A stretch of DNA of 64,000 nucleotides from Phycisphaerae bacterium (lineage in GTDB: Bacteria > Planctomycetota > Phycisphaerae > Sedimentisphaerales > Anaerobacaceae). The position numbers and the translations under genes are program-made. This document shows positions 31,815-35,306 of this stretch, in pieces; positions within the stretch are counted from its first letter, which is position 1; every line of letters begins with the position of its first letter. The notes beneath the pieces are model-generated. The model was not told the origin of the DNA. It worked only from the letters and a program-made list of their open reading frames with translations, and did not search any database. The stretch covers positions 1-64,000 of the forward strand of contig JAGOLX010000003.1 of the NCBI GenBank assembly GCA_017993835.1. The letters run 5' to 3'.

Positions 31815-32723
31815 CTACGGAACGTCCCGCCCTGTCGAGGCCCGGCGGATCTCGAACCACTGTTCCGTCGACAGTTCGATGTCGAGCGCCGCAACCGAAC
31901 TGCGGATGCGGTCCATGACGCCCGAGCCCAGCACCGGCACGAACTGCACCGGGTGCTTCAGGACCCAGGCGATGGCGACCTGGTCGACGGACGCCCCGCC
32001 GACCTCCCGCGCGATTCTCCCGAGCGCCTCGCGGAGCCGAACCGCCTGTTCGGAATCCTCCGCGAACAGGCGACCGCCGCCGAGCGGCGACCAGGCCATC
32101 GGTCGAATGTCCAGCCGCTGGCATTGATCGATGCTCCCGTCCGCGTGGGGCGCGAGGTTCATCACCGAGTACTCGATCTGGTTCGTCACGAGCGGGACAT
32201 CCAGCTTCGATGCGAGCATTTCGAACTGAGAAGGCAGGAAGTTCGAGACCCCGAAGTGGCGAACCTTGCCCGACTCTCGCAGGCTCGCGAACGCATCGGC
32301 GACCTGTCGGGGGTCCATGAGCGGGTCGGGCCGATGAATCAGCAGCAGATCGATGTACTCGGTCCGAAGGCATCGCAGCGAGCTCTCGACGGACGCGACG
32401 ATGTGCGAGCGGCTCGTGTCGTACGACTTGACCCGCCGGCCCGGACGCTGCGAGGACACCGGCTTGATGCCGCACTTCGTGACGAGCTGGATCGATCCGC
32501 GACCCACCCCCGCCTGCGCCAGGGCCTCGCCGAAGAGACTCTCGCAGGCATAGTCCCCATAGACGTCGGCGTGGTCGAACGTCGTGATCCCCTGCTCCAG
32601 ACAGCCGTGGATCAGATCGACGATTCCCTTCGTGTCCCGACTCCATTGGGCCAGGCGCCACAGACCGTGAACCAGTCGGGACACCTGAGGACCCTGCTCA
32701 GCCAACATCACTTGAGGAACCAC
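31815..32723 (-). CDS. Aldo/keto reductase (YdhF-like)
   Basis: A 302-residue NADPH-dependent oxidoreductase with a TIM barrel. Catalytic residues are visible: Asp and Tyr in FDHADVYGDYACE, Lys in QLVTKCGIKP and His in IDLLLIHRPDPLMDP. NADPH-binding is seen in MAWSPLGGG and PVLGSGVMDRI. I chose GTG 32723 (GGAG about seven bases upstream) because the product then begins MVPQVMLAEQGPQVSRLVHG as in YdhF proteins; a longer frame from 32807 is unlikely. Its end is 14 bases from the convergent upstream gene. Substrate unknown. Confidence 0.88.
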   Translation of the reverse strand: MVPQVMLAEQGPQVSRLVHGLWRLAQWSRDTKGIVDLIHGCLEQGITTFDHADVYGDYACESLFGEALAQAGVGRGSIQLVTKCGIKPVSSQRPGRRVKSYDTSRSHIVASVESSLRCLRTEYIDLLLIHRPDPLMDPRQVADAFASLRESGKVRHFGVSNFLPSQFEMLASKLDVPLVTNQIEYSVMNLAPHADGSIDQCQRLDIRPMAWSPLGGGRLFAEDSEQAVRLREALGRIAREVGGASVDQVAIAWVLKHPVQFVPVLGSGVMDRIRSSVAALDIELSTEQWFEIRRASTGRDVP

Positions 32724-32859
32724 ATGCGTTCTCCACAACAACTCCGATCGATCGCGGCCGCGCCACGACGCGCACAGGCACGCATCGTACCGCAACTGGC
32801 CCAACAAGACAATCAGTCCGTCTCAGATCCGACCGGGAAGTCAGGGGAGAACCCTCAGC

Positions 32860-32887
32860 TTGACATGACGAACAAGATAGATACAAT
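32860..32887 (+). promoter_or_regulatory. Consensus sigma-70 promoter of an intergenic RNA
   Basis: TTGACA (32860-32865), 16-base spacer, TACAAT (32882-32887), close to ideal and the best match in the window. It lies divergent to the aldo/keto reductase and 365 bases ahead of panB, reading into a structured AT-rich stretch that ends in a terminator at 33134-33159. Confidence 0.75.
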
Positions 32888-32893
32888 CACACT

Positions 32894-33159
32894 TGTGTAT
32901 CTTGCCCATTCTAACGAGAACGGCCACAAAAAGCCAGATTCCAAACAGAATCTGGCTTCGGAGGAGGGTGATGAAAAGCTACTTGTTGGCCTTCGGAAAG
33001 CCTTGTGCTCTCCAGCATTTAACATCGTGCAGAGCAAGGCGGAATCTTTAACGAAAACCGAAGACAGAGAAGAAAATACGCTTTCCCTGAGGGAATTCAA
33101 GAAGTAAATTGTGGAATTGTCAAATATTTCGCGGCTCATTGAAAAAATGAGCGTATTTT
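32894..33159 (+). ncRNA. Candidate structured small RNA, undescribed
   Basis: A predicted transcript of about 265 nt from the promoter at 32860-32887 to a terminator at 33134-33159. It contains a perfect 11-bp hairpin (AAGCCAGATTC/GAATCTGGCTT, 32931-32941 with 32948-32958, loop CAAACA), an enclosing helix GGCCA.CAA/TTG.TGGCC (32922-32929 with 32983-32991), and a bulged hairpin (33000-33011 with 33031-33040). A very strong Shine-Dalgarno-like GGAGGAGGG (32960-32968) lies inside and precedes ATG 32971, which opens a 26-codon frame to 33051. It may be a non-coding RNA, a small-peptide mRNA, or a long leader of panB, but the terminator argues for a separate unit. Composition is much more AT-rich than around. 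I do not recognise it as 6S, tmRNA, RNase P or a known riboswitch. Confidence 0.5.
33134..33159 (+). terminator. Rho-independent terminator of the small RNA
   Basis: GCTCATT (33134-33140) pairs perfectly with AATGAGC (33146-33152), loop GAAAA, followed by GTATTTT. Confidence 0.75.
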
Positions 33160-33251
33160 AGACCCTCAACTATTCGTTTCTACGGGCGAGGGCGGGTTTT
33201 GTTCCCTGGTCATAACCGAGAGCTTGTTAATTCCTTGTGGAATCGTCGAAG

Positions 33252-34106
33252 ATGGAAAACCGAATCACGATTGCGGACCTGCTGAAAGCCAAGCAAGACC
33301 GCCGGCGAATCGTCGCGGTCAGTTGTTACGACTACACCACAGCGCGCCTGGCCGCACAGGCACAGATCGACATGATTCTGGTCGGGGATTCGGCCGCCCA
33401 GTTGGTCCTCGGACACGACTGCACGCTCCCGGTGTCCCTCGACTTCATGGTCACGATCACCGCCGCAGTTCGCCGAGCCGCCCCAGATGTCTACTTGGTC
33501 GCCGACATGCCTTTCCTATCCTACCAGACCTGCCCAGCCGACGCGATCCGCAACGCAGGACGCTTCCTCGTCGAAGCGGGTGCCCAGATGGTGAAAATCG
33601 AAGCCACCGGCGCGTACCTTGACACAATCCGTGCGGTCAGCGACGCCGGCATTCCCGTGATGGCCCACATCGGGATTCTCCCCCAGTGGATCACCACGGT
33701 CGGCCGGTTCCGCGCGGAGGCCACGACCGCAGACGCTGCGATGAATCTTGTCCGCCTAGCCGAGCAGATGATCCAGGCCGGCGCAACCGCCCTTCTCATC
33801 GAGGGGACAGCCGCCGAGGTGGCCCAAACGATCACCGAGCGGTCGCGGGTGCCGGTCATCAGTTGCGGCTCGGGTCCCGGCTGCGACGGCCAGATCCTCG
33901 TGACCCCGGACATCCTCGGGCTCTCGCTGGAGAGTTCCCCGAAGTTTGCCAAGGCTTTCGGGGATCTGGGTCCCCGGTCCATCGAGGCCTTCCGCAAGTA
34001 CAGCGAAGAGGTCCGGGCCGGCCGGTTCCCCGACGCCGAGCACAGCTACCACATGAAGCCGGGCCAAGCCCAGCAGCTCGATGCCCTGCTCCATAAGGGC
34101 GTTTGA
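33252..34106 (+). CDS. panB: 3-methyl-2-oxobutanoate hydroxymethyltransferase
   Basis: PanB adds a hydroxymethyl group from methylene-tetrahydrofolate to ketoisovalerate, the first committed step to pantothenate and CoA. The 284-residue product has the family signatures IVAVSCYDYTTARLAAQA, ILVGDSAAQLVLGH (metal-binding Asp), DMPFLSYQ, VKIEATGAY, VMAHIGILPQ and ISCGSGPGCDGQILV. GTG 33237 is in frame upstream but lacks support; ATG 33252 fits family starts. Other pantothenate genes are not nearby. Confidence 0.95.
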   Translation: MENRITIADLLKAKQDRRRIVAVSCYDYTTARLAAQAQIDMILVGDSAAQLVLGHDCTLPVSLDFMVTITAAVRRAAPDVYLVADMPFLSYQTCPADAIRNAGRFLVEAGAQMVKIEATGAYLDTIRAVSDAGIPVMAHIGILPQWITTVGRFRAEATTADAAMNLVRLAEQMIQAGATALLIEGTAAEVAQTITERSRVPVISCGSGPGCDGQILVTPDILGLSLESSPKFAKAFGDLGPRSIEAFRKYSEEVRAGRFPDAEHSYHMKPGQAQQLDALLHKGV

Positions 34107-34140: not shown

Positions 34141-35112
34141 CTACGCCGGACGCTCGAAGACGGGATTCAGCGATTGGGCCATTTGCCGGAGGGAGTCCTT
34201 TTCCTTTTGGGAAACCGGGCGGAAATCCATCGCCAATTCCAGAGCCAGCCGGAACAGGGACTCATCCCCCGGCGGGATCGCCGCCGTGACTGATTGGCTC
34301 AGCGTGAAGTACAAGCCCAGCTTGGCCTCGTTGCGGTCCGCCAGGGGTTGATACCAGCACTTAGGGTACTGCGGTCGAAGTGGATCACCCTCGGGCCACT
34401 TCTGCTTTGCCATCGCCTTGAGAGCCAGTCTCGCAACACCCTTGGCCTTGGCCGTCTCGATCACGCGAAGGCCGAAATCCACCTTGTAGTACATGGCAAA
34501 GTTGATCGGGAACAGGATCGAGTCGAAGTCATACCGCTCCATCGCGGCCAGCGCCGCAGCCTCCGAGTGCGCCGAGAAACCCAGATAGCGGACCTGCCCC
34601 TGCTTCTTCGCATCGAAAAAGACTTCCATCGCCCCGCCGGGGGCGAACGCTGCATCGACGTCCTTGGGCACGTCGGAAATCGCGTGGAGCTGGTACAGAT
34701 CGAGGTGGTCCGTCCGCAGCCGTCGGAGCGATTCCGCGAGTTCGGACGCCGCACCTTCCTTCGTCCGCTGCGTCGTCTTGCAGGCGAGGAATACATCCTT
34801 GCGATAGGGTTCCAGCGCCGGTCCGAGCTTGACCTCGGCATCGCCGTAGGTGGGCGCGACATCGAAGTAGTTCACCCCCTTCTCGACCGCCTCGGCGACG
34901 AGGCGATTGGCCTGTTCCTGCTCGACGCCGCTGACGACGAGCCCGCCAAACCCGATGATGGACAGCCGCTCGCCCGTATCCCCGTACGCCCGTCGCGGCA
35001 GCTTCGGAGCGTTCACACAATCACACTCCGGCTCAGCGCCCTGCGCGAGCCCCCCCGCTGCCACGGAGCCAGCGACAACCGCTCCACTCTTCAGGAACTC
35101 TCTGCGTCTCAT
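34141..35112 (-). CDS. Tat-exported aldo/keto reductase
   Basis: A 323-residue oxidoreductase with a twin-arginine signal, MRRREFLKSGAVVAGSVAAG, so it is probably folded in the cytoplasm and exported. The barrel has FDVAPTYGDAEVKLG (Asp and Tyr), FLACKTTQRTKEGA (Lys) and LDLYQLHAISD (His). The C-terminal part departs from standard members, as often seen in planctomycete Tat reductases. The start ATG 35112 has AGGAG about nine bases upstream. It is divergent from blaI. Role unknown; the family often occurs in sugar-modifying pathways of this phylum. Confidence 0.87.
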   Translation of the reverse strand: MRRREFLKSGAVVAGSVAAGGLAQGAEPECDCVNAPKLPRRAYGDTGERLSIIGFGGLVVSGVEQEQANRLVAEAVEKGVNYFDVAPTYGDAEVKLGPALEPYRKDVFLACKTTQRTKEGAASELAESLRRLRTDHLDLYQLHAISDVPKDVDAAFAPGGAMEVFFDAKKQGQVRYLGFSAHSEAAALAAMERYDFDSILFPINFAMYYKVDFGLRVIETAKAKGVARLALKAMAKQKWPEGDPLRPQYPKCWYQPLADRNEAKLGLYFTLSQSVTAAIPPGDESLFRLALELAMDFRPVSQKEKDSLRQMAQSLNPVFERPA

Positions 35113-35260
35113 TCCATGTTCTCCTGCGCTGGTGTCACGTGGGTGCCGTTCATATTGCACCATCATGGTATCGCCCGGTTCGGGATCATGCAATGCTGCT
35201 GTGGAAGAGCAGCCTCGGCGTGCCAGGAAGACTTTTTTTCCAAAATCACACAAATCCCGG

Positions 35261-35306
35261 TTGACATCTATGACAGATGTCATATATTAGATATTACATT
35301 CGTCAT
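35261..35306 (+). promoter_or_regulatory. BlaI-type operator inside the blaI promoter
   Basis: TTGACA (35261-35266) and TATATT (35283-35288) are spaced by 16 bases. Between them lies the dyad TGACAGATGTCA (35271-35282), resembling the TACAnnTGTA core bound by BlaI/MecI repressors. A second imperfect site, ATTACATTCGTCAT (35293-35306), follows. This arrangement would let BlaI repress its own operon by covering the promoter. Confidence 0.7.

Follow-up and report, generated by a model that had tools for sequence, protein, structure and literature searches.

The window, a stretch of 64,000 nucleotides from a Phycisphaerae contig (JAGOLX010000003.1), contains panB, encoding ketopantoate hydroxymethyltransferase, on the plus strand at 33249–34106 (PF02548, E 3.2e-91; relatives by tblastn). 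An aldo/keto reductase gene lies on the minus strand at 31815–32807 (PF00248, E 4.6e-56); its coordinates are those of the listed open reading frame and the real start may be internal. A further minus-strand frame at 34141–35283 was called aldo/keto-reductase-like from its translation alone, and such frames lie on both sides of panB and the small RNA considered here. The spacer between the reductase and panB is AT-rich (GC 0.44–0.49 relative to approximately 0.65 in the surroundings), and its sequence occurs once in the genome. A plus-strand frame of 80 residues (ATG 32865) and a minus-strand frame of 94 residues were rejected as genes, neither having a Pfam match.

The initial annotation read the spacer as an undescribed, structured and independently transcribed small RNA or tiny-peptide RNA on the plus strand, and the elements it listed were all present. 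They comprised a promoter-like TTGACA-16-TACAAT at 32860–32887, matching 11 of 12 consensus positions, a perfect 11-bp hairpin (32931–32941 pairing with 32948–32958), GGAGGAGGG at 32960–32968 followed by an ATG at 32971 that starts 26 codons, and a hairpin with a T-run resembling a terminator at 33134–33152. Positions 32860–32915 also hold an inverted repeat, CAAGATA...TATCTTG, around CACACTTGTG, which is perhaps an operator. The proposed Infernal comparison was run on both strands with cmscan against all 4227 Rfam families (E up to 5). Only two chance-level matches were returned, scoring 17.0 and 15.6 bits against gathering thresholds of 53.4 and 37.8. 6S RNA, tmRNA, RNase P RNA and riboswitches were without a match, in agreement with the earlier view that no known class fits.

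Spacers upstream of panB relatives were compared. A near-invariant AAAAAGCCAGATTC-loop-GAATCTGGCTTCGGAGGAGGGTGATGAAAAG (plus reading) was found approximately 300 nt upstream of panB in 54 loci, and the conserved part of the window spacer corresponded to 32927–32978. The ATG shared by these loci opens frames of 3 to 124 codons, very often MKS-stop, with no common sequence, so no conserved peptide is encoded and the 26-codon product was abandoned. The plus-strand terminator was not kept in the spacers of congeners. The plus-strand promoter was kept in the nearest congeners only, being exact in two loci (L083, L084), nearly exact in a third (L085) and reduced to the −35 element in a fourth (L086).

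Stem pairing was evaluated on an alignment of 42 distinct modules. Covariation of the stem was 0.300, compared with 0.170 in shuffled alignments, and double changes were seen in 5 of 11 pairs. Read as minus-strand RNA, 454 of 460 stem cells pair (98.7%), against 411 of 460 (89.3%) for the plus strand. The plus RNA pairs fewer cells because 46 of them are G·U on the minus strand and A·C on the plus strand; only 3 strand-diagnostic cells favour the opposite orientation. The covarying stem that would support a structured RNA was found, with pairing that fits the minus RNA better than the plus RNA. Relative to shuffled sequences, the minus RNA folded with z −3.36 (0/200) and its C-rich linker unpaired, and the plus RNA more weakly (z −2.54, 2/200). 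A hairpin with a U-tract (at least 4 T within the last 6 nt) ends all 42 modules and, together with the covariation, has the form of an intrinsically terminated sRNA.

A promoter of the form TTGA[T/A]T-16-TA[G/T]TTT stands at a constant distance upstream of the module in panB-linked copies. It was scored by fixed-distance alignment and dinucleotide shuffles, instead of a generic sigma-70 scan of single sequences. The strict form, TTGA[TA]T-16/17-TA[GTC]TTT, occurred at 10 of 46 panB loci (0.015 expected), and a loose form at 31 of 46 (7.9 expected, maximum 15 in shuffles). No conserved frame was seen among the longest open reading frames of the minus RNAs, which, together with a promoter of its own above shuffles, is the pattern of a trans-encoded sRNA. 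Judged by the G·U/A·C asymmetry, the U-tracts in 42 of 42 modules and a promoter well above shuffles, the predicted RNA is on the minus strand.

In the window, this promoter comprises a −35 element TTGAAT at 33095–33100 (family consensus TTGATT) and, after a 16-nt spacer, a −10 element TATTTT at 33073–33078, both on the minus strand and both identified by fixed-distance conservation. From its position, an sRNA of approximately 140 nt is predicted at 32927–33066 (minus), consistent with folding and the full-length alignment. The 5' end was placed approximately 7 nt past the −10 element and the 3' end within the U-tract. An alignment of 46 full-length RNAs gave a conserved 5' block around UUAAAGA in panB-linked copies (approximately 33043–33053, minus). 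This second conserved element, in the 5' half of these RNAs, reads UUUUCnnUAAAGAAUU...UUCGAU and spans approximately 33043–33053 and 33020–33026 on the same strand.

The 3' portion of the minus RNA reads CUUUUCAUCACCCUCCUCCGA, the stem AGCCAGAUUC-loop-GAAUCUGGCU and then UUUUU. It holds a C-rich seed, 5'-UUUUCAUCACCCUCCUCCGA-3', at 32958–32977, an 11-bp hairpin at 32931–32958 assigned as an intrinsic terminator from covariation and strand asymmetry, and a U-tract at 32928–32932 that appears as an A-run on the plus strand. The perfect 11-bp hairpin noted earlier is the stem of this terminator, and the A-run ahead of it is the U-tract. The seed was near-invariant in the 42 distinct modules, in which the stems vary. 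It is the exact complement of GGAGGAGGGUGAUGAAAA, which comprises a Shine-Dalgarno (SD) sequence, a six-base spacer, AUG and AAA. Within its own RNA the seed is predicted to be mostly accessible (mean unpaired 0.84); over the family the mean is only 0.63, with low values in some members.

These results bear on the plus-strand reading, in which the hairpin of a structured RNA or tiny-peptide mRNA would control the SD sequence and the 26-codon frame, possibly as an RNA thermometer. The promoter with 11 of 12 consensus positions, its retention in the nearest congeners and the perfect SD-ATG on that strand speak in its favour. The frame varies, however, the stem acquires A·C mismatches, the promoter is absent beyond the closest congeners and the terminator is not kept. 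Other module loci show nothing like the plus-strand unit, and the SD-ATG itself is the antisense image of the seed of the minus RNA. This reading was considered highly improbable, more so than any other set out below. The proposal of an undescribed, structured and separately transcribed small RNA between the reductase and panB stands as a prediction; the strand, ends, promoter, terminator and mechanism assigned to it do not, the conserved part being the 3' end of a minus-strand RNA.

Further copies were sought with a covariance model built on the 3' module. Within one Phycisphaerae order, 79 of the 95 genomes carried it (E ≤ 1.5e-11), with a maximum of 7 copies in a genome. Beyond this order, matches within the same class reached E 8e-4 or worse, and those elsewhere in the phylum had E ≥ 6.9e-5, none convincing. 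Named records with panB-linked copies belong to the Phycisphaerae, including Sedimentisphaerales. At the level of sequence, the comparison establishes a module conserved across the order, consisting of the invariant, C-rich UUUUCAUCACCCUCCUCCGA, predicted to be single-stranded, and an intrinsic terminator. In panB-linked copies a promoter of sigma-70 type, likewise conserved, and a body of variable sequence stand ahead of it. Upstream of the module, family members carry repeated CCnnnTTAACA / TATTTTAACA boxes, in place of which the window has its inverted repeat.

Sibling copies have different stems, the same seed and neighbours other than panB. In one genome (G093) two tandem copies at L191 (contig C118) are each preceded by a TTGACT-type promoter; there and at L192 (contig C27) tandem copies lie approximately 200–250 nt apart with separate terminators. 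At L159 (G039) 8 nt separate the −10 element of TTGACA-17-TACCAT from the seed; an RNA made there would therefore comprise little beyond seed and terminator.

The linkage to panB was weighed as evidence for a cis-acting device, in which the minus RNA would act on a panB leader begun at 32860, by antisense pairing or by interference. Synteny with panB holds across most of the family, the promoters are divergent, and the plus-strand promoter-like site of the nearest congeners may start a long leader of panB, which would be antisense to the sRNA. Against this, in other members the promoter region of panB falls outside the sRNA, and the conserved part is the seed and not the antisense overlap. Siblings have other neighbours, and two genomes (G058, G042) keep the panB-type orthologue although panB itself is 11 kb distant or lies on a different contig, which argues that the RNA is independent of panB. 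A role confined to panB was accordingly judged very unlikely.

A further explanation is that an overlooked minus-strand gene ends here in an ordinary intrinsic terminator, the seed being conserved trivially as part of a repeat or mobile element; a hairpin and U-tract would then be present as in any normal terminator. Stems that differ completely around an unchanged 19-mer are difficult to reconcile with it, as are the lack of a conserved minus-strand frame and of any longer shared repeat around the copies when sibling loci were compared. We regard this explanation as improbable, to a degree close to that of the panB device.

Viral sequences were searched with the 19-mer. The exact sequence TTTCATCACCCTCCTCCGA was found in 50 IMG/VR viral stretches (L242–L291). 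In the same database 0 matches were returned for the reversed 19-mer, for the CAT-to-CGT seed variant and for CCTCC with one of its C's replaced by any of the other three letters; changing both first T's gave one match, which had no hairpin. Several seed variants with CCGGA or CCTA ahead of a hairpin look like further copies of the module. The viral seed is followed by 42 distinct segments, nearly all of them hairpins starting directly there and most mutually dissimilar. Attachment-site duplication was rejected as the origin of the viral copies, the viral stems being unlike host stems. Isolated phages (INPHARED) and plasmids (PLSDB) gave no meaningful match to the module.

Viral copies often follow a stop codon immediately or lie close to an integrase or tRNA, and one stretch (L243) encodes Erf and primosomal genes. 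Module-bearing host loci near an integrase (L163) and a holin-like gene (L162) encode proteins 39–49% identical to those of module-bearing viral contigs, and a third host locus (L202) encodes one that is 75% identical. These identities link the viruses to the order, which they appear to infect, although host assignment in this way is inferred from sequence. Copies located 2–14 nt past a stop codon (18 of 50) have no room for a promoter of their own, so the module there would form part of an mRNA 3' end.

That placement favours the main rival, according to which the 19-nt sequence is a protein-binding or processing signal of transcript 3' ends that acts with the terminator in 3'-end formation, stability or decay. 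The module is always positioned at the end of the transcript, extreme constraint on sequence would suit a protein site equally well, and the accessibility of the seed is uneven. However, the 6.4-Mb genome containing the window has one copy only of the seed sequence, which rules out a general 3'-end signal. Most host copies stand alone, without an open reading frame that ends just upstream, and a protein site would have no reason to be the exact complement of an SD sequence and AUG. A 3'-end signal was considered unlikely, but less so than the other alternatives.

The preferred reading is a stand-alone gene for a trans-acting minus-strand sRNA whose seed would block translation initiation at the SD sequence and start codon of mRNAs without Hfq; we put its probability at roughly two in three. 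Since the 19-letter stretch at the 3' end mirrors a ribosome-binding site and start codon, the RNA probably silences mRNAs by covering the site at which ribosomes start. Transcription would run away from panB, towards the reductase gene on the same strand, and end at the terminator. The seed would then pair with GGAGG...AUG (SD/start-codon) regions of other mRNAs and keep 30S subunits off them, and an mRNA leader such as GGAGGAGGGUGAUG is of the type expected to be repressed. Sibling, viral and prophage copies, often in a 3' UTR past a stop codon, would bring the same anti-initiation seed under different expression control.

Pairing would proceed without Hfq, a protein absent from the lineage: PF17209 was found in 0 of 41 genomes, with positive controls, and membership of the Hfq-dependent sRNA class was rejected. 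No KhpA/B match exceeded the cut-off; sub-cutoff matches lay inside frames of approximately 700–750 residues and are probably PNPase-type KH domains.

Candidate targets were then sought. Perfect seed complements gave few start-codon sites, and only a few of the 29 seed-complement sites examined in the genome containing the window lay at plausible start codons; no clear target regulon was found among them. Two candidates at starts (L217, L225) have 1 and 2 mismatches, respectively. One such site alone was conserved within the genus: GGGAGGAGGGTGATGG in a leader, not on the start codon but approximately 40 nt upstream of a 53-residue protein (MFSR..KKDG..RWYPSSR...MVRKPEWR) encoded downstream of hisF. 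This leader, TCCGATA(G/A)GGAGGAGGGTGATGG, is located at L177:1205–1219 and in orthologues L176, L178–L181 and L189, and occurs in most congeners. The site may be a candidate target or a small upstream frame. It was rejected as a second sRNA copy, L177 and its orthologues having no following U-tract on the minus strand.

The closest counterpart is alpha-r14 of the Rhizobiales (NfeR1, Smr14C2), in which an ultraconserved CCUCCUCCC anti-SD motif is unpaired and the stems are free to vary (PMC10746234, PMC3927594). NfeR1 silences ntrB through its anti-SD seeds, which block the translation initiation region, and does so independently of Hfq (PMC10746234). The unpaired motif, variable stems, several similar RNAs and predicted Hfq-independence are common to both. 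Alpha-r14 has three hairpins with the motif in each loop, whereas here one copy occupies a single-stranded linker before the terminator; the present motif is longer, reaches over the start codon (CAUCACCCUCCUCC), occurs in another phylum and is also found in viruses. Membership of alpha-r14 was rejected on the three-hairpin layout and on the lack of covariance-model (Rfam) homology. RNAIII, CyaR and AbcR1 also have partial anti-SD loops (PMC3927594). In these, too, unpaired C-rich segments mask SD sequences, but the motifs are shorter and partial, in unrelated RNAs of other phyla.

The 3' end of 16S rRNA carries the anti-SD sequence GAUCACCUCCU. The module resembles it in the AUCACC-CUCC pattern, both being complementary to SD sequences, but has one extra C, an added CAU and UCC and a terminator after them, and is not rRNA. 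3'-UTR-derived and phage-encoded sRNAs are known kinds, which the viral copies between stop codon and intrinsic terminator recall; the difference is an identical seed common to host chromosomal sRNAs and many viruses on unrelated stems.

On its sequence features, the locus holds a predicted, hitherto uncatalogued RNA. It lies on the strand opposite to that first proposed and is of a different kind, a variant of the anti-SD sRNA that is unexpectedly shared with viruses. The family most likely consists of antisense sRNAs that act without Hfq to prevent translation from starting and are common to host and viruses. More tentatively, and with some doubt on our part, the viruses may have the invariant 19-nt anti-initiation sequence of their host attached to terminators of their own; set free from late or lysogeny transcripts, it would let them either take over a host-wide, Hfq-free circuit of translational control or insulate themselves from it.

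A search of one literature library returned no work on sRNA regulation in Planctomycetota. For annotation, the locus illustrates that a strong SD-ATG can arise as the antisense counterpart of an sRNA seed when the wrong strand is read. If the reading is true, a family of sRNAs spread over a whole order in multiple copies, whose near-invariant seed of 19–20 nt covers the SD sequence and start codon, would be a clear convergent example of anti-SD regulation. Viral reuse of the seed with unrelated stems would offer an entry to virus-host RNA mimicry, and the family would provide a direct way into Hfq-free sRNA control in an almost unstudied group.
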